From Sphaerisporangium rufum (GTDB lineage Bacteria > Actinomycetota > Actinomycetes > Streptosporangiales > Streptosporangiaceae), in NCBI RefSeq assembly GCF_016863395.1, contig NZ_BOOU01000071.1, positions 1-64,000 of the forward strand: 64,000 nt of DNA, given 5' to 3'. Positions within the stretch are counted from its first letter, which is position 1. Each line of letters opens with the position of its first letter. The position numbers and the translations under genes were made by a program. Positions 48,198 through 64,000 of the stretch are shown here, piece by piece. Below the pieces are notes generated by a model, which was not told the DNA's origin, did not search any database, and worked only from the letters and a program-made list of their open reading frames with translations.

Positions 48198-48469
48198 CCG
48201 CCCAACGTTAGGGTGATGGTCAGCGATCAGCCACCGAATTTCGCGAGATTGATCCCGCTATGAGCGCTATGTCGGATTCTCCGGTTGGCCAAGTGTCACT
48301 GCTGGTGCACAATTCCACCGATCCGAATTTCTGTAACGTTCTGGTACCAGAGAGGCCGACGAGGCGCTAGTGTGATCGCGCGCGCAAATGTCCCGATAGA
48401 TCCCGGTAGGCACCCAGCAGCAGATAACCGGTTCACCCCGGTACTGCGATATCTGGCGGAGGACGGGAT

Positions 48470-49237
48470 ATGAGAGAAACGCGACATCGACGGGCTCCGA
48501 AGCGCTCTCGATCACGTGCACCGATCGTGGTCGGAGTGCTGACGACGACGTCGCTCGTCGCCGGGACCGCTCTCCTCGGAGCGGCGGTCCTCATACCGGT
48601 ACAAAGCTTTTTGATCTTCTATGCGGGGGTGTTCGCTCTCCTTGGACTGACCGGGGTGGTGGTCATCGGCCTGGCCGCCACCGATCGCATCATCCTCTCC
48701 GTACGCCACCGCGTCTTCATGCAGGCCCTGCACCGGGCCATGGCGGTCTTCGCCGTGGGATTCCTCATCACGCACGTCGTGCTGCAGATCATGCGGCAGC
48801 GGGTGACCGGCGCGGACGCCGTACTGCCGTTCGCCGGCTCCGGCTTCGCGGTGGGCCTCGGCACGATCGCCGCGGACCTGATGATCCTGGTCGCGGCGAC
48901 CGGCGCCTTCCGCGCCAAGTTCGTCGGCGGCAGGTTCCCGTGGATGTGGCGCGCGCTGCACGTGACGGCGTACGTGTCCTGGCCGGTGGCCATCGTGCAC
49001 GGCCTCACCGCGGGCCGGTCCGCCGCCGACTGGGTCACGCTCAGCTACATCGCATCGCTGATCGTGGTGGCCCTCGGCGTGCTGATGCGCCTCATCGTCA
49101 CCGTCGCGCCCAAGGAGGGCGCGCCCGGCATGGCCGTCCGGGCGGTGAACCTGGGCCGCAAGGCCGAGCCCATCCGGGTGGACGACGTCTTCGACGAGGA
49201 GTTCTGGACCACGTTGCGAAAAGAGGTACGGCGGTGA
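48470..49237 (+). CDS. ferric-reductase-like bis-heme membrane protein
   Basis: 255 residues with about six transmembrane helices. Two helices carry paired histidines: His88 and His102 in LHRAMAVFAVGFLITH, and His164 and His177 in LHVTAYVSWPVAIVH. The 13-14 residue spacing is that of two stacked b-hemes in ferric reductases and NADPH oxidases. There is no flavin or NAD(P)H domain in this protein. The soluble C-terminal tail (residues 215-255) is charged. Its stop overlaps the start of the NuoF-like gene (GTGA), so the electron donor is almost certainly that protein. Confidence 0.82.
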   Translation: MRETRHRRAPKRSRSRAPIVVGVLTTTSLVAGTALLGAAVLIPVQSFLIFYAGVFALLGLTGVVVIGLAATDRIILSVRHRVFMQALHRAMAVFAVGFLITHVVLQIMRQRVTGADAVLPFAGSGFAVGLGTIAADLMILVAATGAFRAKFVGGRFPWMWRALHVTAYVSWPVAIVHGLTAGRSAADWVTLSYIASLIVVALGVLMRLIVTVAPKEGAPGMAVRAVNLGRKAEPIRVDDVFDEEFWTTLRKEVRR

Positions 49238-50718
49238 GCGCCGGTGTGCTGCAGGTCTTCCGGATCGGCCCCGGCCGGATCACGGCGGGCCTGGACAGCT
49301 CCCCGCGGCTGGACTACGACACCCACCGCCGGGTGCACGGGCAGCTTCCCCGGCTGCCGATCGACGACCTGATCGCGCTGGCCGAGCTCGGCGACCTGCG
49401 CGGACGCGGCGGCGCGGGCTTCCCGTTCGCCCGCAAGCTCCGCGCGGTGGTCGACTCGGCCGGCCGCCGCGGCGCGCCCATCACGGTGGTGGTCAACGCC
49501 ACCGAGGGCGAGCCCGCGGCGCACAAGGACAAGATGATCCTCGCCAGGGCGCCGCACCTGATCCTGGACGGCGCCGACCTGGTGGCCCGGGCGCTGAACG
49601 CCCGGGAGATCGTGGTCGGCGTCGCGCACGGCGGTCCCGGCGAGCGCTCGCTGCTCAACGCGATCCACGAGCGCGGCATGACCGACTTCGTGCGGGTGGT
49701 CCGGATGCCCGACCGGTTCATCTCCGGTGAGGGCGGCGCCCTGGTGCGCGGCATCAACGGCGAGCGGCCCATCCCGCCCGGCCGCAAGGTCCGCTCCAGC
49801 GACAGCGGCGTGGGCGGCATGCCCACCATGCTGTCCAACGCCGAGACCTACTCCCAGCTCGCGCTGATGGCCATGCTCGGCGTGGACATGTACTCCTCGG
49901 TGGGGCTGCCGTCGGAGCCGGGCACGGTGATGCTGAGCGTCACCGGGTCGGCCAAGCGGCCCGCCGTGGTGGAGACGCCCACCGGCGTGCGGCTGCGCGA
50001 GGTGCTCGACCTGTGCGAGGCGACCATCGGGCAGGGCGTGCTGCTCGGCGGTTACCACGGCAAGTGGATGTCCGCCGAGGCGGTCGAGCGGGCCGAGGTC
50101 TCCCGGGCCGGCTTCGAGGCGCTCGGCGGCGCGCTCGGCGCGGGCATCGTGGTGCCGCTCGGCTGGGAGTCGTGCCCGCTGGGCGAGACCGCGCGGGTGG
50201 CCCGCTACATGGCCGGCCAGAGCGCCGGCCAGTGCGGGCCGTGCTACATGGGGCTGCCCGACCTCGCCCAGGCGTTCGGCGCGCTGGCCGACGGCAACGG
50301 GCACATCGAGGCGGTGCAGCGGGCCGCGGCGACGATGAAGGGCCGGGGGGCGTGCTCGCACCCGGACGGCACCTCGAAGTTCGTGCTGTCGGCGATCGAC
50401 GTGTTCGCCGAGGACATCATGACCCACGCGGCGTACGGCACCTGCGGGCTGCCCACCAAGGGCGTCCTGCCGCTGCCGGTGGAGGCGTCGACCCGGGCCG
50501 CCGAGGCCCAGCTCATCCTGGACTGGTCGCGCTGCGAGGGGCACGGGCTCTGCTCGGTCATCGTCCCGGAGCTGATCACCCTCGACCAGCACGGCTACCC
50601 GGTGGTGAGCACCGCCTCGGTGCCGAACAACCTGGTGGGGGAGGCCCGGCGGGCGATCGAGATCTGCCCGGCCCTGGCCCTGCGCCTGACGCCGGCCCCG
50701 GCCGAGAAACGGGGCTGA
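49234..50718 (+). CDS. NuoF-like FMN/Fe-S protein with fused C-terminal ferredoxin
   Basis: 494 residues. The N-terminal part is like the 51-kDa subunit of complex I: GRGGAGFPFARK (57-68) and NATEGEP (88-94) form the NADH/FMN site, then ISGEGGALV and an SLBB-like segment. The Fe-S motif reads SAGQCGPC with Cys334, Cys337 and Cys374; Ala332 stands where NuoF has the first Cys. Residues 425-490 are a fused 3Fe-4S-type ferredoxin (Cys434-x5-Cys440 ... Cys478-Pro). Probable path: NAD(P)H to FMN to Fe-S to the membrane hemes of the coupled upstream protein. Confidence 0.85.
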   Translation: MSAGVLQVFRIGPGRITAGLDSSPRLDYDTHRRVHGQLPRLPIDDLIALAELGDLRGRGGAGFPFARKLRAVVDSAGRRGAPITVVVNATEGEPAAHKDKMILARAPHLILDGADLVARALNAREIVVGVAHGGPGERSLLNAIHERGMTDFVRVVRMPDRFISGEGGALVRGINGERPIPPGRKVRSSDSGVGGMPTMLSNAETYSQLALMAMLGVDMYSSVGLPSEPGTVMLSVTGSAKRPAVVETPTGVRLREVLDLCEATIGQGVLLGGYHGKWMSAEAVERAEVSRAGFEALGGALGAGIVVPLGWESCPLGETARVARYMAGQSAGQCGPCYMGLPDLAQAFGALADGNGHIEAVQRAAATMKGRGACSHPDGTSKFVLSAIDVFAEDIMTHAAYGTCGLPTKGVLPLPVEASTRAAEAQLILDWSRCEGHGLCSVIVPELITLDQHGYPVVSTASVPNNLVGEARRAIEICPALALRLTPAPAEKRG

Positions 50719-50770
50719 GCCTGCCCGAGAAGCGGGGTCTGCCGGGAAGCGGGGCCGAGCCCGGACGGGC

Positions 50771-50804
50771 CACGGGCCCGGCCGCGACGGCGGCCGGGCC
50801 CGTG
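50771..50804. terminator. strong bidirectional terminator
   Basis: Perfect 15-bp stem (CACGGGCCCGGCCGC with its complement) and loop GACG, between the convergent NuoF-like and anti-sigma genes. It should end transcription from both sides. Confidence 0.8.
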
Positions 50805-50896
50805 ACGCCCGATGGCGGGAAGGAGTGCGGGCACGCCAGGGCGCACCCGCCGGCCAGGCGGCCTGTCCCGCCGCCCGGCGCCCCCTCGCCCGCCGC

Positions 50897-51913
50897 TCAG
50901 GCCACGGGGATGTCCAGCAGGTGGACGCCGTCGTCCCGGCGCACCTCGAAGCGCTTGATGTCCTTGAGCACCAGCGCCGTGCCGCCGGTCAGCGTCAGCG
51001 GCTCGGGGAAGCCGGGCACGCCGTACCCCTTGCCGGCGGCGACCTGCCAGCCGGACACCACGTCGGTGGCGCCGTTCTTGGACACCGCGATCAGGCTGCA
51101 GCGCTCCGGCCCGCGCACCCCGCTGAGCTGGAAGGACACCTCGGTTCCCCAGCTCTTGTTCACCAGGCCGACCGAGCCGCTCACCCCGGTCGCCGGGCCG
51201 GCGCCCTTGCGGAACACGTCCATGTCGCCCGGCGCGGGCGGCTGGGGCTGGGCGATCGGCGCGGACTGGGCCGTCCGCGGCCACAGCTGGGCGGTGACCG
51301 TTCCGGTGACCCCGATGACCACCGCCGCGGCGGCCGAAAGCAGCACGGCGCGCCGGCGGCGGTAGCGGGCCACCGCTACCTCGTCGATGTCCAGCCGCAC
51401 CACCTGCTCCGACCCGGTGGCCGGCTCGGCGCGGCGCCGGCCGGTCGAGGCCGCCCGGTGGCCGCTGCCCGGCCGCGGGCCGGTGGCGCGCCGCGGGCCG
51501 GTCGTGTGCCGCGGGCCGGTCGTGGCCGGCCCGATCGGCTCGCCCGACCACAGGTCGCGCACCACGCCGTCCCCCAGGTGGGCGCCGTTCACGCCACCGA
51601 GGCGGGTGCCGTTGGTCTCCGGGGAAGGCGGCCGCGGGGTGCGGTCGGACAGCCCGGCGAACAGGCCGTCCTCCATCCGGTAGCCGTTCGTGTCCCGGGC
51701 CGTTCCGTTCACCGCACCCGGCGTGCCCGCAGCGCCCCGCTTGAGATGGTCCAGCTCGTCGGGGAGCTCGTACATCTCGATGAGCTCGCGCTGGCAGCTC
51801 GGGCAGTCGAGCAGATGGCGGTCGAACGCCTCGGAGTCCTCCTTGTTGAGGACACCGAGGATGTACGCCGCCACCTCGACGTGAGGGGGTGATCCTTCCA
51901 TCAGACCGGTCAC
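50897..51913 (-). CDS. zinc-binding transmembrane anti-sigma factor
   Basis: 338 residues. The N-terminal zinc anti-sigma domain has His33-x3-Cys37-x2-Cys40 (HLLDCPSCQREL) and should hold the sigma factor in the cytoplasm. A long Gly/Pro/Arg-rich linker (about 60-180) leads to one transmembrane helix (190-210) and an extracytoplasmic RskA-like domain (FRKGAGPATGVSGSVGLVNKSWGTEVSFQLSGV). The ATG overlaps the sigma stop (ATGA). The layout resembles RslA/RskA and implies release by a signal outside or by thiol oxidation. Confidence 0.9.
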   Translation of the reverse strand: MTGLMEGSPPHVEVAAYILGVLNKEDSEAFDRHLLDCPSCQRELIEMYELPDELDHLKRGAAGTPGAVNGTARDTNGYRMEDGLFAGLSDRTPRPPSPETNGTRLGGVNGAHLGDGVVRDLWSGEPIGPATTGPRHTTGPRRATGPRPGSGHRAASTGRRRAEPATGSEQVVRLDIDEVAVARYRRRRAVLLSAAAAVVIGVTGTVTAQLWPRTAQSAPIAQPQPPAPGDMDVFRKGAGPATGVSGSVGLVNKSWGTEVSFQLSGVRGPERCSLIAVSKNGATDVVSGWQVAAGKGYGVPGFPEPLTLTGGTALVLKDIKRFEVRRDDGVHLLDIPVA

Positions 51914-52479
51914 CCCCTCTCCTTCATCGTCTTCTTCAGGGCGCGAAGCGCGTAGTACACCCGGGACTTGACCGTCCCCGGCGGTACTCCCAGCACCTCG
52001 GCCGCCTCATTGATCGTACGGTCGTGGAGATAGGTCTGCACGAGCGCCTCCCGGTGTTCCTCCGAGAGGCGGTACAGAGCCTCCGATACCACCATCTTCG
52101 ACAGCATCGGCTCCGAGCCGTCGGGGATGGCGACGGTGTCCAGGCGATCAGGCTCTACCTCCTGCGGGCGCACCGAACGCTGCCGGTGGGTGTCGATGAC
52201 GATGCGGCGGGCCACCGTCATCAGCCACGCCCACAGCAGGCCGGGCTCCCGGTTGAGCTTGGCGGCGTTCCGCCAGGCGCGGAACACCGTCTCCTGTACG
52301 ACATCTTCTGCCCATTGCTGGTCGCCTCCAGTCAGTCTGCGCACATTGCGGAGGAGGGGTCCGCCGTACTCGCGGTAGAGCGTCGCTACGAGCTGCTCTT
52401 CGGAGTCCTCGTGCGTCTCCTCCGGTAGGGACCGGACGCTGCGATGACGCTGCACAGGCACATGGTGGCAGCGGATCAC
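51910..52479 (-). CDS. ECF sigma factor (SigL-like)
   Basis: Up to 189 residues. Region 2 is LVATLYREYGGPLLRNVRRLTGGDQQWAEDVVQETVFRAWRNA; region 4 is LSEEHREALVQTYLHDRTINEAAEVLGVPPGTVKSRVYYALRALKKTM. The start is uncertain: GTG at 52479, or GTG at 52458 or 52452, since no good ribosome site is seen. Coupled by ATGA to the anti-sigma gene. A SigL-like promoter lies in front of the divergent DUF4142 gene, so that gene is probably a target. Confidence 0.9.
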   Translation of the reverse strand: MIRCHHVPVQRHRSVRSLPEETHEDSEEQLVATLYREYGGPLLRNVRRLTGGDQQWAEDVVQETVFRAWRNAAKLNREPGLLWAWLMTVARRIVIDTHRQRSVRPQEVEPDRLDTVAIPDGSEPMLSKMVVSEALYRLSEEHREALVQTYLHDRTINEAAEVLGVPPGTVKSRVYYALRALKKTMKERG

Positions 52480-52537
52480 CAGTCACGTGAGCAAATCTCG
52501 CAACTTCCGTAAAAAACCGAAAAATCGACAGGTGCGG

Positions 52538-52565
52538 TGAACCGCTGCCGCACCGGCGGCGTATT
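52538..52565 (+). promoter_or_regulatory. candidate ECF (SigL-type) promoter of the DUF4142 gene
   Basis: TGAACC and CGTATT separated by exactly 16 bp. The mycobacterial SigL consensus is TGAACC with a CGT-starting -10, and the adjacent sigma factor is of that kind. The start would be near 52572, about 50 nt before the GTG. Confidence 0.6.
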
Positions 52566-52622
52566 CCCTGCTGACAAGCGCGCCTTGGGGATCTGCGGGA
52601 CACGGAAGGAAGAGGACATTCG

Positions 52623-53258
52623 GTGAACCTCCAACTCAGGCCGATGCGTCTGGTCGAAGTGCTCGCGGCGCTCGCCTTCCTGGTGATCGCCACGATCGCG
52701 GTCCTGACCATCGCCCCGAACGGCATCACCTCGGCGAGCGGCGACGCGGGGCAGTTCACCCAGACCCCGTCCGGCCCGCTCGGCCCCGCCGACCGGGACT
52801 TCCTGGTCAAGGTGCGCCAGGCCGGCCTGTGGGAGATCCCGAGCGGCCGGCAGGCGCAGCAGCGCGCGGGCAGCGCCCGCGTCAAGCAGGTCGGCCTCCA
52901 GCTGGTCGCCGACCACATCAAGCTCGACCAGCAGGTACGGGCCCTGGCCGCCAAGCTCGGCGTCGGGCTGCCGAACGTCCCCAACCCCGACCAGCAGGGC
53001 TGGATGGCCGAGCTGTCCACCAAGACCGGCGAGGACTACGACAAGACCTTCGCCGACCGGCTGCGCGCCGCGCACGGCAAGGTCTTCGCCGCCGTGTCCC
53101 TGGTGCGGGCCGGCACCAAGAACAACGAGATCCGCGCCTTCGCGCAGGTCGCGGTCGACGTGGTCATGAAGCACATGACCCTGCTGGAGAGCACCGGCAA
53201 GGTGGACTACGCCGCCCTGCCGACGCCCCCGCCTCCCTCCCCCAACCCCTCCAAATAG
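52623..53258 (+). CDS. DUF4142 exported or membrane-anchored helical protein
   Basis: 211 residues. An N-terminal helix (LVEVLAALAFLVIATIAVLTIA) acts as signal or anchor. The rest is the ferritin-like four-helix DUF4142 domain (FLVKVRQAGLWEIPSGRQAQQRAGSARVKQVGLQLVADHIKLDQQV, RAFAQVAVDVVMKHMTLLES). The C-terminus is Pro-rich. GGAAGAGG lies before the GTG at 52623. Divergent from the sigma/anti-sigma pair and behind an ECF-like promoter. Molecular role of DUF4142 is unknown. Confidence 0.88.
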   Translation: MNLQLRPMRLVEVLAALAFLVIATIAVLTIAPNGITSASGDAGQFTQTPSGPLGPADRDFLVKVRQAGLWEIPSGRQAQQRAGSARVKQVGLQLVADHIKLDQQVRALAAKLGVGLPNVPNPDQQGWMAELSTKTGEDYDKTFADRLRAAHGKVFAAVSLVRAGTKNNEIRAFAQVAVDVVMKHMTLLESTGKVDYAALPTPPPPSPNPSK

Positions 53259-53398: not shown

Positions 53399-55759
53399 TC
53401 ACCCCGGTCCGTAGACGTCCCAGAGCTGTCCGACGAAGAACCTGCCGAACCGGGCGACCGCCGCGACGCCGTGCGGGCCCTCGGTCCGCAGGCTCTTCAA
53501 CGTCGCGGCGAGATCCGTCGGCCGGATGTGCAGCGTGCCCGCACCGACGACCGTCGCCCCGCCGTCCCCGCCGTCCGGGACGTGACCCTCCAGTAGCGTG
53601 ACGAAGAGGGTCGAGGTGTCCAGCCACAGCCGGGTGGGCGGCCCGTGGTGGACGTCCTTCCAGCCCGACAGCGTGCGGGCCCGGCCCGCCGCGTCGGTGA
53701 ACCACAAGCGGTAGCGCATCTCCCGCCGGTCCGGCGTGCCGCCCGGCGCGAACAGGTTGAACCAGCCCCGCTCCACCGGCCGCCGCCCGCCCGCCAGGGC
53801 GGACTCCAGCCAGCCCTCCGCGCGGGCCGGATGCTCCGGCTCGGCCAGGAACCGGTCCACATCGGCGATGCCGATGGTCAGCCGGAACGACAGCCGGTCA
53901 CCGGTCGACCGGCCGGTCATGTCGCCGGAGGCCGGATCGGTGACCCCCGGCGCGACGAACCCGCCCATCTCCTCGGTGAACGACAGCGACGTCCGCTCGG
54001 CGGGCGTCTCCGCCACCGGGCCGCTCGCCGCCGTGGCCGGGCCGAGGCCCACCTCACCGTCCGCTACCGTCATTCGCACACGTCCTTCTTCCCCACGCCG
54101 GGTCCAGGCCGGCGGTCTTTCCAGGAGCCGGGTGCACATCCGGTCGGCCAGCGCCGCGATCGTCAGCGACGGGTTGGCCCCCACCGGCCCCGGCAGGGCC
54201 GCGCCGTCGGCGATGTACAGCCCCGGGTGGTCGAACACCTCGCCGAAGGCGTCGCAGACGCCCTCACCGGGATGCCGTCCCATCGGTGCCCCGCCGAGCG
54301 GGTGCACCGTGATGACGCGCCTGCCGAGCCAGCCGGGCATCCCGGCGTGCTCGGCGCCCAGCACGTCGGAGACCCGGCGCATGGTCGCGCGCAGCCGGTC
54401 GAAGTGCGGCTCGCTGGCCGCCGAGTTCCACTGCACGTCCAGCCGGCCGTCGCGCAGCCGCAGCACCCCGTCCGGCACGTCGCGCCCCATGCCGAGCAGC
54501 GGCAGCGAGCTGCCGGACAGGTCACCGTCCCCGACCAGGCCGGCGATCTCCGCCGACAGGTTGGTGTCGTGGGTGACCAGCGCCCGGATCCGTTCGGCGA
54601 TGAACCGCGCCGCGCGGGCGATCTCGTGGCGCACGTCCGCCCCCTCGACCAGCCAGTCGACGAACGAGGGGTAACCGCCGTCCTGGATGTAGGCGCCGCG
54701 CCCGCTCTCCCGGGTGCCGTCGGCGTCGTCGGCCAGCCGGATGGTGCTGGTGATCACCGGGCCGCGGCTGGCGTCGATGGTGCGGGTACGGCTGCGGTCC
54801 TTGGCCCGCAGCAGGAAGGTCAGCAGGTCGCCGTTGCCGGAGAACCGGCTGCCGAGCGTGCCGCTCAACCCCGGCAGCCCGGCCCGGCTGCGCAGCAGCA
54901 GGTACGTCGTGCCGTAGGTGCCGGCCGCCAGCACCAGCCGGTCGCAGGTGATGGTGTGCGAGCCGCCCGCCGGGTCGTGGCGGACGTAGTCGACGGCGTA
55001 CCCGCCGGCCGGCCGGGCCCGGACCGCCCGCGCCTCGTGCAGCGTGCGCAGCTCGGCGCCGTGGTGCCGGGCGGCCGACAGGTAGGTGTGGTCCAGGCTG
55101 TTCTTGGCGCCGTCGTTACACCCCACGTCGCACTCCCCGCACAGCCGGCAGGTCCGGCGCGGCACCCCGTGCAGGTTGCCGTACGGCGCGGCGGCCAGCG
55201 GCAGGCCGATGCCCGGCGCCGCCCCGCGCGAGGGGGCGAAGCTGACGCCGAGCGGCGGCAGCGCCCACTCAAGGCCCAGCTCGGCGGCGGCGTCCTGCAT
55301 GGCGCGGGTCTTCGGCGTGGCGTCGTAGCCCGGCTGCTCCAGCGGGTACGGCGTCGCGCCGATCATCTCCTCCACGGCGTCGTAGTGCGGGTCGAGGTCG
55401 GCTCGCGTCACCGGCCACGTCTCATACCCGCCGCGGGGCAGCGGCTCCTCGTGCACGAACCACTTCTCGTCCTTGCGCAGCAGGACGTTGGCGTAGATCA
55501 GCGAGCCGCCGCCGAGGCCGCTGCTCACCACCGAGTCGCAGCCGCCGAAGCTCCACACGTCGTACAGGCCGTAGAGGCCGGCCCGCGGATCCCAGAACGC
55601 GCCGCCCATCTCCGCGGGACTGCGCGGGAACGTGCCCGGCGGGTAGGGCCGGCCGCGCTCCAGCACGACGACCGACAGCCCGGCCTCCGCCAGCCGGTAG
55701 GCCGCCACCGCCCCGCCGAACCCCGACCCCACGACCACCGCGTTGTAATGAGAGGACAT
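53399..55759 (-). CDS. GMC-family flavoprotein, cholesterol-oxidase type
   Basis: 786 residues. The FAD-binding motif is VVVGSGFGGAVAAYRLAEAG at the N-terminus; SSGLGGGSLIYANVLL follows. The catalytic His/Gly region is VHPLGGAPMGRHP with DGAALPGPVGANPSLTIAALADR (GMC signature 2). CRLCGECDVGCNDGAKNSLD (about residues 203-222) has four Cys, as in the Cys-rich cholesterol oxidases. An extra C-terminal domain of about 220 residues (from about 565) is unlike the flavin domain. No signal peptide. The alpha/beta hydrolase gene ends 3 bp upstream of its start, so they form an operon probably acting on a sterol-like lipid. Confidence 0.85.
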   Translation of the reverse strand: MSSHYNAVVVGSGFGGAVAAYRLAEAGLSVVVLERGRPYPPGTFPRSPAEMGGAFWDPRAGLYGLYDVWSFGGCDSVVSSGLGGGSLIYANVLLRKDEKWFVHEEPLPRGGYETWPVTRADLDPHYDAVEEMIGATPYPLEQPGYDATPKTRAMQDAAAELGLEWALPPLGVSFAPSRGAAPGIGLPLAAAPYGNLHGVPRRTCRLCGECDVGCNDGAKNSLDHTYLSAARHHGAELRTLHEARAVRARPAGGYAVDYVRHDPAGGSHTITCDRLVLAAGTYGTTYLLLRSRAGLPGLSGTLGSRFSGNGDLLTFLLRAKDRSRTRTIDASRGPVITSTIRLADDADGTRESGRGAYIQDGGYPSFVDWLVEGADVRHEIARAARFIAERIRALVTHDTNLSAEIAGLVGDGDLSGSSLPLLGMGRDVPDGVLRLRDGRLDVQWNSAASEPHFDRLRATMRRVSDVLGAEHAGMPGWLGRRVITVHPLGGAPMGRHPGEGVCDAFGEVFDHPGLYIADGAALPGPVGANPSLTIAALADRMCTRLLERPPAWTRRGEEGRVRMTVADGEVGLGPATAASGPVAETPAERTSLSFTEEMGGFVAPGVTDPASGDMTGRSTGDRLSFRLTIGIADVDRFLAEPEHPARAEGWLESALAGGRRPVERGWFNLFAPGGTPDRREMRYRLWFTDAAGRARTLSGWKDVHHGPPTRLWLDTSTLFVTLLEGHVPDGGDGGATVVGAGTLHIRPTDLAATLKSLRTEGPHGVAAVARFGRFFVGQLWDVYGPG

Positions 55760-55762
55760 CGC

Positions 55763-56863
55763 TCAGCCCGAGTGGCGCTTGAGGAAGTCGAGGATGCGGG
55801 GGAAGACGTCCACGTGGGCGTTGCGGCCGATGAGCGGGTCGATGTGCCCGTAGCCGGGCAGGATCTGCAGCTCGTGCCGGCCGGGGGCGCGGGCGGACAG
55901 CTCCCGGTGGCAGACGATGTTGGAGTCGGTGAACACGTCGTTGTGGTCACCGGTGAGGAACAGCACCGGCGTGGGCACCGCGGCCGCGCCGGCCAGGTAG
56001 TCGTCCGGCAGCGCGGCGTGCGCCGGCTCGCCCGGGTCGCACTTGACCGCCCGGCCGGCCCGCACCATCCGGCCCACGTGCCGGTAGTAGCCGACGTCCG
56101 CGGCGCCGTTGAGGTCGGCGAGCCGTTCGTGGACGTGCGTGTCCGGGGCGAGGTTGCGGTGGCGGTACATCGCCGGGCGGCCGCTGCCCCACATGAAGCT
56201 CTGCATGTGGCAGGCCGGCTCGCGGCACTCCGGATGCAGGAAGGAGACCAGCCGCGCCAGCAGCCACCGGCGGGTGAGCGGCGGCGCGCCGGCGAACCGC
56301 GGGTCGATGTAGGAAAGGCCGAGCACGTGCTCCAGCAGCGCCGGGCCGGCGGCGAGCTTCATCCGGGCCCACGGGTGGACCCGCGGGGTCAGCCCGACGC
56401 TGTTGGCCACCATGCTGGTGATGCCGCCGACCGCTCCGCCGAACAGGCTCATCTGGAACGACACCGACCCCAGGCAGTGCGCGATGACGTGGATCCGCCG
56501 TGCCCCAACGTGACGGCGGAGCTCGCCCACCGCTGCCGGATGATCGAAGGCGGCGATGTCGTCCAGGGTGTGCCGCCGGGTCTCCATGTTGTACGGGAAC
56601 CGGTTGCTCATCCGGAAATCGAGTGCCCACACGTCGCCGAAACCGTTCTCCAGCAGGTGGGTCACCAGGTTGCGGTGCTCCGGCATGACGAACATGTCGC
56701 TGGACGAGGTCAGCCCGTGGACCAGCAGGACGACGTCGTCGCACTCCCCTCCGCGGAAGCGCGTCAGCGTCAGCCCGAGCTCGTCCCCGGTCGAGAAAGG
56801 ATGCACCGACACCTCGGCACCGGACACGCCCTCAAGCGTGAAACGCGGTATGCGGTGCGCCAT
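55763..56863 (-). CDS. alpha/beta hydrolase with Cys at the nucleophile position
   Basis: 366 residues. The fold is clear: LLVHGLTSSSDMF (oxyanion region), RIHVIAHCLGSVSFQMSL (nucleophile elbow), LFLTGDHNDVFTDSN (acid Asp306 or Asp309) and GYGHIDPLIG (His340). The elbow reads AHCLGS, with Cys130 where hydrolases usually have Ser, as in dienelactone-hydrolase-like enzymes and in the hydrolase domains fused to some GMC oxidases. It lies just upstream of the GMC gene, co-transcribed. Possibly opens a lactone or thioester of the oxidised lipid. Confidence 0.85.
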   Translation of the reverse strand: MAHRIPRFTLEGVSGAEVSVHPFSTGDELGLTLTRFRGGECDDVVLLVHGLTSSSDMFVMPEHRNLVTHLLENGFGDVWALDFRMSNRFPYNMETRRHTLDDIAAFDHPAAVGELRRHVGARRIHVIAHCLGSVSFQMSLFGGAVGGITSMVANSVGLTPRVHPWARMKLAAGPALLEHVLGLSYIDPRFAGAPPLTRRWLLARLVSFLHPECREPACHMQSFMWGSGRPAMYRHRNLAPDTHVHERLADLNGAADVGYYRHVGRMVRAGRAVKCDPGEPAHAALPDDYLAGAAAVPTPVLFLTGDHNDVFTDSNIVCHRELSARAPGRHELQILPGYGHIDPLIGRNAHVDVFPRILDFLKRHSG

Positions 56864-60934: not shown

Positions 60935-62131
60935 ATGACCCAGGCCATGCCCCAACCGGTGACCCTGCCGATGACGAGGGAGAGGCCGCTCGATCCCCCC
61001 GAGGATCTCGGCAGATGGCGCGAGGAGGGGCCGATCCGGCCGCTGCTGTACGCCGACGGGCATGTGGGCTGGCTGGTCACCGGATACGCGGCCGCCCGCG
61101 CGGTGCTCGCCGACCCGCGCTTCAGCACCCGGGTGGAGCTGATGCACCCGCCGTTCCCGCAGCGGCTGCGCCAGGCGCAGATCAAGCCGCGCCCCGGGTT
61201 CTTCCTGCGCGAGGACCCGCCCGAGCACACCCGCTTCCGCCGGCTGCTCACCGGGCAGTTCACCGTCCGGCGGATGAAGCTGCTCGAACCGCGGATCGCG
61301 AAGATCACCGAGGACCGGCTGGACGAGATGGAACGGCTCGGCCCGCCGGCCGACCTGGTGCAGGCGTTCGCCCTGCCGATCCCGTCCCTGGTCATCTGCG
61401 AGCTGCTCGGCGTGCCCTACGACGACCATGAGCGGTTCCAGCGCGACTCCTCCATCCTGCTCAGCCTCGAATCCTCCATCGAAGAGATCACCGCCGCCAT
61501 CGACGGGCTGACCGACTACCTGGCCGAGCTGGTGCGCCGCAAGCGGGCGGAGCCGGGGGACGACCTGATCAGCGGGCTGGTCGCCTCCGGCGAGCTGACC
61601 GAGGAGGAGATCACCGGCGTCGCGGTGCTGCTGCTGGTCGCCGGGCACGAGACGACGGCCAACATGCTGTCCCTCGGCACGTTCACCCTGCTGAACGCGC
61701 CGGCGCAGCTGGCCGCGCTGCGCGAGGACCCCTCGCTGGCGGAGAGCACGGTGGAGGAGCTGATGCGCTACCTCACCGTCATCCACCTCGGCCCGATCCG
61801 CACCGCGCTGGAGGACGTCGAGGTGGCGGGCGAGACGGTGCGCAAGGGACAGTCCGTCACGATCGCCCTCGGCGCCGCCAACCGCGACCCCGGGCGCTTC
61901 GAGTCGCCCGATACGCTGGACATCAGGCGGCAGGCCATGGGGCACCTGTCCTTCGGGCACGGCGTCCACCAGTGCCTCGGCCAGCAGCTGGCCCGCATCG
62001 AGATGCGCATCGCCTATCCGGCGCTGCTGCGGCGGTTCCCGGGCCTGCGGCTCGCCGTCCCCGCCGATCAGGTCGAGATGCGGTCCAACATGGCGATCTA
62101 CGGCGTTCACCGGCTGCCGGTCGCCTGGTAG
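60935..62131 (+). CDS. cytochrome P450 (bacterial class I)
   Basis: 398 residues, soluble. The I-helix oxygen-activation motif is AGHETT (236-241), the ExxR pair is Glu275/Arg278, and the heme-binding loop is FGHGVHQCLGQQLAR with proximal Cys347. It is similar in layout to CYP105/CYP107-type actinomycete enzymes that hydroxylate drugs, macrolides or terpenes. The next gene is a 3Fe-4S ferredoxin 14 bp downstream, its likely electron donor; a ferredoxin reductase is not encoded nearby. AAGGAG precedes the ATG. Confidence 0.95.
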   Translation: MTQAMPQPVTLPMTRERPLDPPEDLGRWREEGPIRPLLYADGHVGWLVTGYAAARAVLADPRFSTRVELMHPPFPQRLRQAQIKPRPGFFLREDPPEHTRFRRLLTGQFTVRRMKLLEPRIAKITEDRLDEMERLGPPADLVQAFALPIPSLVICELLGVPYDDHERFQRDSSILLSLESSIEEITAAIDGLTDYLAELVRRKRAEPGDDLISGLVASGELTEEEITGVAVLLLVAGHETTANMLSLGTFTLLNAPAQLAALREDPSLAESTVEELMRYLTVIHLGPIRTALEDVEVAGETVRKGQSVTIALGAANRDPGRFESPDTLDIRRQAMGHLSFGHGVHQCLGQQLARIEMRIAYPALLRRFPGLRLAVPADQVEMRSNMAIYGVHRLPVAW

Positions 62132-62145
62132 GAGGTCCACCGGCA

Positions 62146-62355
62146 ATGTTGATCAACGCGGACACCGGGCGGTGCATCGGCGCGGGCATGTGCGCCCTCA
62201 CCGCCCCGGAGGTGTTCGACCAGAGCGAGGACGACGGCACCGTCGTGGTCCTGGACGCCGAGCCCGGCCCCGAGCGGGCGGCGGCCGTCCGCCGGGCCGT
62301 CCAGGTGTGCCCGTCGGGGGCGCTGTCCCTGGCCGGCGCGCCGGCGACCGGCTGA
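62146..62355 (+). CDS. 3Fe-4S-type ferredoxin partnering the P450
   Basis: 69 residues. Cys10 in GRCIGAG, Cys16 in GMCALTAP and Cys56 in VQVCPSGA give the C-x5-C ... C-P pattern of SoyB/FdxD-type 3Fe-4S ferredoxins, with the middle Cys of a 4Fe-4S cluster absent. TAGGAGGTC at the end of the P450 gene provides the ribosome site. It passes single electrons from a ferredoxin reductase to the P450. Confidence 0.95.
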   Translation: MLINADTGRCIGAGMCALTAPEVFDQSEDDGTVVVLDAEPGPERAAAVRRAVQVCPSGALSLAGAPATG

Positions 62356-62450: not shown

Positions 62451-63026
62451 TCAGGCCGGCGGCGGCACGAAGGCGTCGTAGGCCGACTCGGCCGGCATGG
62501 AGTGGCCGGAGGGCATCTGGTGGTCCGCCGGCATCGGGGTACCGGAGGACATCTGGTGGCCGGGCGGCATCTGATGCCCGGAGGGCATCTGGTGGTCCGG
62601 TGGCATCGGCGCGCCGGAGGGCATCTGGTGGCCGCCGTCGCGCAGCGTGCCGCCGATCGCGGCCCGGAACGGCTCCAGCATCTGGCGGGTGTTGCCGACG
62701 ACGATCCACCGGGGACCGATCAGGTAGGCCCCGCCGTAGTCCACCGCGTCCGCCAGCCACTGATCCCTGCCGGTCTCGGTGGCGAACGTCGTGACCGAGA
62801 AGCCGCCGCCGTTCGCCGTGCGGCACATGCCTTGCCGCAGCTCGGCCGCGTTCACCAGGATCGACGGCTTGGCGCACCCGATGCGCCCGGCGATCTGCTC
62901 GACGGTCGAGGGGGCGGCGGCGGCGCCGCGCGCGGTCCCGCACCCGCCGAGCAGGCCGAGCGCCAGTACGGCGCCGAGCGACGCGGCGGTGCGGCGGGCG
63001 GGCCCGGCGTGGCGGGGACGTTCCAT
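62451..63026 (-). CDS. lipoprotein with a His/Met-rich C-terminal tail
   Basis: 191 residues. The lipobox LLGGC gives lipidated Cys29. Residues 41-130 form a small domain (TVEQIAGRIGCAKPSI, FATETGRDQWLADAVDYGGAYLIGPRWIVVGN) shared with the next gene, with Cys51 and Cys68 17 residues apart. Residues 131-178 are a tail with 6 His and 8 Met: HQM occurs five times and HSM once. Such His-Met spacing is typical of copper- or silver-binding tails. GGAGTGAAGAG precedes the ATG. No copper transporter gene is adjacent. Confidence 0.75.
   Translation of the reverse strand: MERPRHAGPARRTAASLGAVLALGLLGGCGTARGAAAAPSTVEQIAGRIGCAKPSILVNAAELRQGMCRTANGGGFSVTTFATETGRDQWLADAVDYGGAYLIGPRWIVVGNTRQMLEPFRAAIGGTLRDGGHQMPSGAPMPPDHQMPSGHQMPPGHQMSSGTPMPADHQMPSGHSMPAESAYDAFVPPPA
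62493..62636 (-). repeat. imperfect tandem repeats encoding the His/Met tail
   Basis: The coding strand repeats HQMPSG/HQMPPG/TPMPAD-type units of 6-12 residues; the + strand shows GGCATCTGGTGG-like words recurring every 18 or 36 bp. Good substrate for copy-number change. Confidence 0.75.
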
Positions 63027-63118
63027 CTCTTCACTCCCATCCGGCGTGCCGGCCCGGGTTCCTGCGGCACGCTCCCAGATACGGCGCTCCCCGCGCCCCG
63101 GTTCAGCGTCGCGGCGGG

Positions 63119-63553
63119 TCAGGACGTGGTCTCCACGGTGCCGCCGAGCGTGGCGCTGAACGACTGCAGCAGGGCCGCGTCGTTGCCCGAGATCACCCAG
63201 CGGGTGCCGACCAGGTAGTTGCCGCCCCACTTCTTGGCCTCCGTCAGCCAGTCCGTCTTGCCTTGGTCGGTGGAGAAGGTCACCAGGACGTACTGTCCCT
63301 GGTCGGTCTGGCAGGCCGCCTGGCGCAGTTCCTCGGCCTCGGTCTGGATCTGCGGCTTCTTGCAGCCCGTCTTGGTGGCCAGCTGCTTGATCGTGGCCGG
63401 CGGGCCGGGGTCGGCGGCGGGTACCGCCGCGCCCGCCGCGGCCAGGCCGGCCTGGGCCGGCTGGTCCTCGCCGCCACCGCACGCCGTGGCGAGGGTGAGG
63501 GCGAGCACGGAGCCGGCGAGTGCGGTCACCCGCGTGGCGGTGCGTCGTCCCAT
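63119..63553 (-). CDS. lipoprotein paralogous to the upstream His/Met protein
   Basis: 144 residues. Lipobox LATAC gives Cys25. The domain (TIKQLATKTGCKKPQI, YVLVTFSTDQGKTDWLTEAKKWGGNYLVGTRWVISGN) matches the neighbouring gene in order and spacing, including the Cys64/Cys81 pair, but it lacks the His/Met tail. The two genes run in the same direction with about 90 bp between them, as expected for a tandem duplication. I do not know this family's function. Confidence 0.75.
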   Translation of the reverse strand: MGRRTATRVTALAGSVLALTLATACGGGEDQPAQAGLAAAGAAVPAADPGPPATIKQLATKTGCKKPQIQTEAEELRQAACQTDQGQYVLVTFSTDQGKTDWLTEAKKWGGNYLVGTRWVISGNDAALLQSFSATLGGTVETTS

Positions 63554-63796
63554 GGCTGATCTCCCATCACTGTCCAGCGGATGTCACCGCCAGCGGATAC
63601 GCGTGCCGGCCGCCGATGGTTCATCCGCGTGCCGCGCGAGTCGCATCCGGGCCGGTAGCCGCCGGGCCGTCAGGTCCGGATAAGAATTTCGGCGAACTTC
63701 CAAGATGGTTCGAACTGTTCCGGCGCTCCCCCCGTACCTCCTCGCGATGGGGCACTGACCAATGCCGCATGAGTACTGACTCCCAGAGGAGTTCGA

Positions 63797-64000
63797 ATGA
63801 TCCGAAACCAGCACAGACGGCGGTTCAGGCCCGTCCTGAGCGTCCTTGCCCTGGGTGGGGCAGGGGTCGGGCTCGTCGTGGCGAGCGTGACCCCGGCTGG
63901 GCCGGCGACGACGACCACTGCACTGGCGCGGTCGGTTCTCGCCGCGGCCCCCGCCCTAGTGAGCTCGGCCGCGGCGCCGACCGTCAACTGCCCCTCGGTC
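63797..64000 (+). CDS. secreted protein, 5' part only (cut by window end)
   Basis: An open frame of 68 codons runs to the end of the window. It starts with MIRNQHRRRFRPVLSVLALG, a basic n-region and a long hydrophobic stretch that predict a Sec signal peptide with cleavage in an Ala-rich segment (about residues 50-58). CAGAGGAG lies 6 nt before the ATG. The mature start AAPTVNCPSV is not enough to name a family. Confidence 0.7.
   Translation, partial: MIRNQHRRRFRPVLSVLALGGAGVGLVVASVTPAGPATTTTALARSVLAAAPALVSSAAAPTVNCPSV

Follow-up and report, generated by a model that had tools for sequence, protein, structure and literature searches.

A ferric reductase-like and NuoF-like redox pair linked to a SigL-like sigma factor and to DUF4142 and DUF1996 genes in Sphaerisporangium rufum and its relatives

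Genes and proteins at the locus

We analysed a window of 64,000 nt (the whole stretch of DNA under study, forward strand) on contig NZ_BOOU01000071.1 of Sphaerisporangium rufum (GCF_016863395.1), which carries a two-gene redox operon beside a sigma/anti-sigma pair and a DUF4142 gene. The operon opens with a ferric reductase-like (FRD-like) membrane protein of 255 residues (48470..49237, plus strand; assigned by open reading frame, Pfam, alignment and hydropathy), for which two hemes b and a short cytosolic tail are predicted. It continues with a 494-residue NuoF-like flavin mononucleotide (FMN)/Fe-S protein bearing a ferredoxin domain (49234..50718, plus strand; Pfam and fold match), the GTG start of which overlaps the TGA of the FRD-like gene, with 4 bp shared. 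On the minus strand follow an RslA-like anti-sigma factor (50897..51913; zf-HC2, HxxxCxxC and PDB match) and a SigL-like extracytoplasmic function (ECF) sigma factor (51910..52479; Sigma70_r2/r4 and PDB match), overlapping by 4 bases. Divergent from the sigma gene lies the DUF4142 gene (52623..53258, plus strand; Pfam and structure model), 57 bp behind an ECF-type promoter-like motif, TGAACC-N16-CGTATT (52538..52565, plus strand; motif search). A sixth partner, a DUF1996 gene (63797..64000 in the window, plus strand), was overlooked in an earlier first-pass annotation of this DNA because only its start, from 63797, falls inside the window while the rest extends to contig position 65773; in the four Sphaerisporangium genomes measured it lies approximately 14-15 kb from the redox pair. 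Because the redox pair adjoins a stress switch and two secreted proteins in many soil actinobacteria, the adjacency suggests one envelope-redox system that has been described only in part so far.

The first-pass annotation had called the other five genes a possible undescribed membrane redox module under an ECF sigma factor, and all five lie where it had placed them. The translational coupling and the fused ferredoxin that it described are supported by the 4-bp overlap and a Fer4_15 match, and, in line with its statement, the neighbouring genes that were called and scanned include neither NuoE nor any other gene of complex I. The identities that it gave to the regulators and the DUF4142 protein were likewise borne out by the best PDB matches and by zf-HC2 and PF13628 scores over their cut-offs. 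The sigma factor matched Mycobacterium tuberculosis SigL best (6dv9, 1.3e-26), with the next entry, not named SigL, at 6.6e-11, and the anti-sigma factor matched 3hug_B best, a SigL-partnered chain (RslA in PMC2877774; 1e-4). The zinc motif HxxxCxxC of the anti-sigma factor reads H-LLD-C-PS-C, within a zf-HC2 match at residues 15-41 (2e-5), and one transmembrane segment is predicted at approximately residues 188-206. According to PMC2877774, disulfide formation in RslA releases zinc and the affinity for SigL drops 8-fold.

The DUF4142 protein scored 91.7 bits against PF13628 (cut-off 27; E 6e-26), and its model (predicted local distance difference test, pLDDT, 83) exhibits a four-helix ferritin-like bundle after an N-terminal hydrophobic segment. 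No PDB sequence matched it at E≤1. By fold, the nearest solved structure was DUF305 (3bt5; Z 16.5, root-mean-square deviation (rmsd) 2.5, 143 residues aligned), followed by the copper- and silver-bound forms of CopM (Z 14.9-15.7) and then by Dps and bacterioferritins, with Z 13.4-16.5 over all of these matches listed, and residues E71, H98, D102, D140, H151, H184 and E189 were invariant in 15/15 sequences. The model thus weakly suggests a role in metal handling, since helical bundles reach high Z scores easily. Judged from titles and abstract openings, none of the papers listed for DUF4142 in the open-licence literature treats such a module, and the matches listed there that name DUF1996 are mostly fungal.

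Cofactor sites of the redox pair

Four histidines of the FRD-like protein (88, 102, 164 and 177; H-x13-H and H-x12-H) were invariant in 20/20 aligned homologues, and this pattern is that of two stacked hemes b, the presence of which is predicted. A hydropathy rule gave six membrane segments, excluding the helix at approximately residues 160-180 that bears two of the histidines; because this helix is absent from the predicted segments, the six-helix count follows the family pattern and not the protein's own prediction. A PF01794 match at E≤0.01 was obtained for 10/20 members of the family, and the FRD-like gene shares the locus with the NuoF-like gene, mostly close upstream of it, in 57 of the 63 loci examined. 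Several homologues (L041, L042, L062, L064, L065, L067 and L069) possess long, low-complexity Pro/Gly-rich C-terminal tails of up to several hundred residues, and in the window, L042 and L067 the tail terminates in an acidic peptide of like [FY]W..LR.E type, which may serve to dock the NuoF-like protein.

The NuoF-like protein, of which the closest named relatives (87-92% identity) were from Sphaerisporangium, matched Complex1_51K (6e-28), NADH_4Fe-4S (5e-16) and Fer4_15 (1e-11) in Pfam and scored 58.7 bits against PF10589 (cut-off 23.5); its score against NCBIfam TIGR01959, 158 bits, is well under the cut-off of 559. The NuoF-like part spans approximately residues 1-404 and a ferredoxin domain of the CxxHxxC...CP type approximately residues 425-487. 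In the AlphaFold model (pLDDT 86), residues 2-403 have the NuoF fold (Z 41.6-43.9 against complex I and NfnB chains, rmsd 2.1-2.6, 385-405 residues aligned, among 50 matches listed). Across 60 relatives and a survey of 120 sampled Streptosporangiaceae genomes, the protein splits into two forms: a fused one, present at 68 loci of 62 genomes and at least 53% identical to the window protein in the family genomes, and an unfused one at 35-48% identity (41 loci, with two pieces of one gene in genome G030 entered as one unfused locus).

Residues were compared over 70 rows, 26 of them unfused and 44 fused, the latter with one contig entered in duplicate (L034/L056) and a number of closely related species. 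The FMN loop and the NxxEGEP motif are retained in the fused rows, small changes aside, and the ferredoxin cysteines 434, 440 and 478 are present in 44/44; ferredoxin domains of this type bind [3Fe-4S] in actinobacterial ferredoxins. In the N3 motif (CxxCxxC...C), the first cysteine is replaced by Ala (67 rows), Ser (2) or Thr (1) in all 70 rows, fused and unfused, with the other three cysteines present throughout, so that an intact N3-type cluster is not certain. His376, two residues past the last N3 cysteine, is invariant in 44/44 fused and 21/26 unfused rows and is a possible fourth ligand in this alignment. Cys314 or Cys404 as a specific substitute was rejected, as both also occur in a further NuoF-like protein of the same genome (L002) that has all four N3 cysteines.

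The second Glu of the GEE motif, which sits beside the NADH ribose in complex I, is Gly, Ser or Ala in 44/44 fused rows and is kept in 15/26 unfused rows, and the segment KPPFPA, the adenine pocket, reads PPGRK or similar. The same glutamate in E. coli (E183) excludes NADPH, and from these residues we infer that NADPH is a more likely donor than NADH.

Besides the fused gene, the S. rufum genome has two NuoF-like genes in which every N3 cysteine is encoded, and the sequence of one of these is complex I-like. A NuoF-like gene with complete N3 cysteines lies on the same contig approximately 43 kb away (C71:93576-98100) and is followed by a gene for a 901-residue protein, the start of which resembles, by eye, a formate dehydrogenase or NuoG-type subunit. 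These genes bear on the question of whether the redox pair serves the quinone pool. Menaquinone is abundant in actinobacteria, and an MsrQ-like FRD protein exchanging with it would make the pair an NAD(P)H:menaquinone reductase or a quinol-driven source of reductant, MsrQ being the quinone-binding member of this fold family according to PMC8238504. With two other full-cysteine NuoF-like genes in the genome, however, and with linked genes that look exported and not respiratory, we regard a quinone-coupled role as distinctly unlikely.

The two branches of the NuoF-like protein also differ in their neighbours, for which counts here and below use a linkage distance of 8 kb and rest on the places of the matches listed; weaker rows and those of other subfamilies were excluded at first, and on rechecking none of these (70 sigma, 49 DUF1996, 51 DUF4142 and 11 ApbE rows) fell within 8 kb of a fused-type gene. 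Unfused loci often run ApbE-FRD-NuoF-ferredoxin, some with a two-component system; ApbE was within reach in 21/41, and DUF4142, sigma or DUF1996, among the rows used, in 0/41. Near fused-type genes no ApbE or FMN_bind match was listed (0/68), and at E≤0.001 neither family was matched in 19 of the 62 fused-form genomes, that of the single-contig Sphaerisporangium G009 among them. On these two counts we rejected the idea that flavinylation is generally required. As in the MsrQ-like/NuoF clusters in print, electrons might still pass to an FMN_bind protein that ApbE flavinylates and that is encoded away from the locus, and both the ApbE and FMN_bind locus in the S. rufum genome (contig C51) and the ApbE genes near the unfused relatives would accord with this, but the same two counts make such a route very improbable.

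Linkage, promoter-like motif and proposed electron route

DUF4142 was found within 8 kb in 40/68 fused-type loci, the sigma factor in 35/68, DUF1996 in 35/68 and all three in 30/68; some of the loci without partners lie near contig ends. The DUF4142 link was observed in 22/35 genera and in 40 of the 62 fused-form genomes. The first-pass annotation had held that its module would be refuted if most genomes had the redox genes without the sigma/DUF4142 genes; within the home family this is not the case for DUF4142. Four recurring gene orders were seen among the 42 loci compared, 39 of which have DUF4142. In the first, the anti-sigma and sigma genes point leftward and the motif, DUF4142, DUF1996, FRD and NuoF/ferredoxin (NuoF/Fd) rightward; DUF4142-DUF1996-FRD-NuoF/Fd stand head to tail behind the motif in 17/42 loci. 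The second runs FRD, NuoF/Fd, motif, DUF4142, DUF1996 (L043, L045, L070, L118 and L120, and L119 with the motif after DUF4142), the third has DUF1996 and DUF4142 leftward with FRD and NuoF/Fd rightward, then sigma (L060, L066, L116 and L117), and the fourth, that of Sphaerisporangium (10 loci), has FRD, NuoF/Fd, anti-sigma and sigma leftward, motif and DUF4142. As different genera keep the genes together while arranging them differently, the linkage is beyond chance, and the association of the redox pair with the SigL-like pair and DUF4142 that had been proposed is retained across genera. In one genome (G089, contig C1; L121) the module is split, with sigma, anti-sigma and DUF4142 beside an FRD-like gene and the fused NuoF gene approximately 250 kb away. 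Of 396 genomes sampled across the phylum, 10 gave a match at E≤1e-90: that of S. rufum itself and nine others, of which eight belong to one genus that is probably Streptomyces, by the gene order common with L046-L048.

A motif TGAACn-N16/17-CGTAy lies at most 900 bp upstream of DUF4142, in the same direction, in 36/39 loci; L050 has none, L119 carries it between DUF4142 and DUF1996, and L121 reads CGTAGC, and in L060 and L066 the gap to DUF4142 is long, with a Lipoprotein_15 gene in between. Exact sites numbered 46 in 38 loci against 1, 1, 2, 0 and 0 in five Markov simulations, 9 in the S. rufum genome against a control of 0, and 84 in 11 Sphaerisporangium genomes against 13 for a reversed control pattern. 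Since spacer sequences vary between loci, it is the hexamers and not the whole stretch that are conserved. Three of the S. rufum sites fall at 52.5-63.6 kb of the window, one preceding DUF4142 and one preceding each member of a pair of small lipoprotein-like genes that adjoin DUF1996: the first gene (62451..63026, minus strand, gene-caller boundaries) follows TGAACC-N16-CGTATC at 63078..63105 (minus strand), and the second (63119..63553, minus strand), which resembles the first by eye, follows TGAACC-N16-CGTATC at 63596..63623 (minus strand). Neither gene has a match in Pfam or NCBIfam. By eye, 11/11 Sphaerisporangium genomes have one site at the DUF4142 position together with another that lies 10.3-12.3 kb from it on the other strand.

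Many of the targets read from 36 site loci are unrelated single genes; repeated targets were an L131-type family (TIGR03118; 9 loci), an NlpC/P60 family (2) and an aminotransferase family (3). The TIGR03118-type proteins (L131, L135, L142, L143, L148, L151, L157, L159 and L160) form an exported family with the motif before each gene, at 38-39 bp in six of the nine Sphaerisporangium loci, and the family is predicted to be a conserved second target of the regulon. In the S. rufum genome only, a gene for a membrane-anchored LPMO_10 (lytic polysaccharide monooxygenase, LPMO) stands directly behind a motif copy (L124:330-1436, contig C12). LPMOs require an outside supply of electrons or peroxide and enzymes of this type can use H2O2; a link to the module is tempting and rests on one genome.

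Alternatively, the pair could work in the manner of an NADPH oxidase, the outer heme reducing O2 to superoxide or H2O2 outside the cell and the sigma/DUF4142 genes answering or using the oxidant. NADPH oxidases belong to the FRD superfamily according to PMC8238504, the histidines for two hemes are spaced as in such enzymes, loss of the ribose-side Glu would favour NADPH, and the cell-surface LPMO_10 could be a user of the product. Among the loci fetched, however, a single genome has the LPMO site, and a Dps-like DUF4142 protein could equally handle metals. As we also know of no NADPH oxidase with a NuoF-like donor, we consider this mode of action unlikely.

In Sphaerisporangium, the FRD-NuoF operon is preceded by a conserved block (48330..48423, plus strand, in the window; alignment of 9 Sphaerisporangium upstream regions), presumed to be its own promoter/operator. 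The block contains the near-palindromic TGTAACGTTCTGGTACC and ends in GGCACCCAGCA, and its 19-bp core is single-copy in the S. rufum genome with up to 3 mismatches allowed. An RNA element was rejected, as Rfam gave no match at that place; one elsewhere (E 0.47) was under the gathering score.

Taking these observations together, we lean, with somewhat better than even confidence, towards the redox pair being a trans-membrane electron exporter that is functionally part of the envelope stress/metal regulon of the SigL-like pair. The two-protein NAD(P)H-to-heme-b chain of the first-pass annotation is still the natural reading of the cofactor sites, given the Pfam matches, the four histidines, the NuoF fold and the cysteine residues. 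NAD(P)H would reduce the FMN of the NuoF-like protein, and electrons would then pass through the altered N3-type Fe-S cluster to the fused [3Fe-4S]-type ferredoxin domain and on to the inner and outer hemes b of the FRD-like protein, leaving at the outer face of the membrane. The recipients would likely be exported proteins of the regulon, first the ferritin-like DUF4142 and DUF1996 proteins, or metal ions that these handle, and the purpose would be envelope redox or metal chemistry.

Several observations weigh against this. One canonical N3 cysteine is missing; the FRD-like protein reached only 20.4 bits against Ferric_reduct (PF01794), under the curated cut-off of 28, and the FRD profile found no match among PDB chains at E≤1; and a helical-bundle fold match shows no function for DUF4142. 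The approximately 300 bp that precede the sigma gene lacked the motif in 18/20 loci, including the window, so that the usual autoregulation is not seen; with a site in only 2/20 loci, autoregulation through the motif was rejected, although a diverged motif is still conceivable. In 9 Sphaerisporangium genomes, the upstream block of the FRD-NuoF operon (approximately 95 bp, strongly conserved) carries no TGAACC-CGTA motif, so that direct sigma control of the redox pair is at most putative in this genus. The claim that the module stands under an ECF sigma factor accordingly divides: in other genera the motif lies in the DUF4142 transcription unit (17/42 loci), whereas in Sphaerisporangium it precedes DUF4142 and the two lipoprotein-like genes, and in every case the sigma factor would be what reads the motif; the redox pair of Sphaerisporangium would presumably be regulated through its own block. 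Within the home family, 28/68 fused-type loci lack all three partners within 8 kb, and beyond it co-occurrence fails, none of the seven loci of at least 12 kb (L041, from an uncultured Streptosporangiales, L042, L046, L047, L048, L053 and L072) having the link, although a plasmid locus outside the family (L050) has DUF4142 and DUF1996 and no sigma factor; eight further loci of 4.4-4.5 kb are too short to judge linkage.

The separate upstream block, the 28/68 unlinked loci and the approximately 250 kb between the NuoF gene and sigma and DUF4142 in G089 would all fit a redox pair and a sigma/DUF4142 group that are independent and merely adjacent by descent. The link is, however, kept in four gene orders, with 17/42 loci forming one head-to-tail run behind the motif, and we estimate the chance of DUF4142 within 8 kb at approximately 2%, even with 11 copies in 8 Mb, against the 40/68 seen, so that mere adjacency seems improbable. 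Returning to an exporter tied to the SigL-like regulon, a more specific form of it is tentative and, in our estimation, rather less probable than its opposite: that export is flavinylation-independent and sigma-linked, the NuoF/ferredoxin fusion with its three-cysteine N3-type site feeding NADPH electrons through the two-heme protein into DUF4142 and DUF1996, which would thereby have a common function, that of redox metal carriers in the envelope of actinobacteria.

Further neighbours of the module are a two-component system and a GNAT protein upstream, and a GMC (cholesterol-oxidase-like) oxidoreductase with an alpha/beta hydrolase adjoining DUF4142 downstream (53399-56863), the GMC gene being present in 10/10 Sphaerisporangium loci and 0/32 other loci. 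The interval from the module to the two lipoprotein-like genes with motif copies holds a cytochrome P450 accompanied by a small Fer4-type ferredoxin of its own (60935-62355).

Comparison with known systems

An eLife 2021 survey (PMC8238504) reports 31 MsrQ-like flavinylation clusters with a PF10589 NuoF-like protein, mainly in Actinobacteria, and proposes this protein as NAD(P)H donor. Common to those clusters and the module are the PF10589 protein and, putatively, in view of the window protein's score under the PF01794 cut-off, a PF01794-type two-heme membrane protein; in the module the ferredoxin is fused to NuoF, and sigma, DUF4142 and DUF1996 stand in place of apbE and FMN_bind (none listed within 8 kb, 68 loci). 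Because the survey concerns flavinylation gene clusters, ApbE-free loci would presumably fall outside it. The description of the locus as undescribed thus does not hold for the redox pair alone, which is not new, and stands for the whole set, as no description of sigma, DUF4142, DUF1996, FRD and NuoF together was found in the open-licence literature; the fused, apbE-free, sigma-linked form is a variant.

Complex I NuoF and HydB-type flavoproteins share with our protein the fold, the FMN loop and three of the four N3 cysteines, whereas the first cysteine of CxxCxxC is lost here (70/70 rows), the ribose-side Glu is lost in the fused form, a C-terminal ferredoxin domain is present, and no NuoE was seen alongside. 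With DUF305/CopM and with Dps and bacterioferritin, the DUF4142 model has in common a four-helix ferritin-like bundle, a match of fold only, at 3-15% identity among the matches listed.

TGAACC would resemble the -35 element of SigL. SigL and RslA of M. tuberculosis are the best PDB matches for the two regulators and share with them the HxxxCxxC zinc site and, on the -10 side, CG followed by T. PMC6372665 gives the SigL -10 consensus as T-G-N-C/A-A-G preceded by CG, with G preferred after T, whereas the motif here reads CGTA; M. tuberculosis sigL moreover has its own sigma-dependent promoter, P-sigL, in contrast to the 18/20 loci here with no motif before the sigma gene.

Set against these systems, the module would represent a second, flavinylation-free branch of MsrQ-like/NuoF systems, and its electron entry, which derives from NuoF, has a changed cluster site and is possibly linked to NADPH, would be useful for understanding how complex I-type flavoproteins switched partners. 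It also ties DUF4142 and DUF1996 to a cytosolic reductant and a zinc-type anti-sigma switch, and their role therefore becomes testable.

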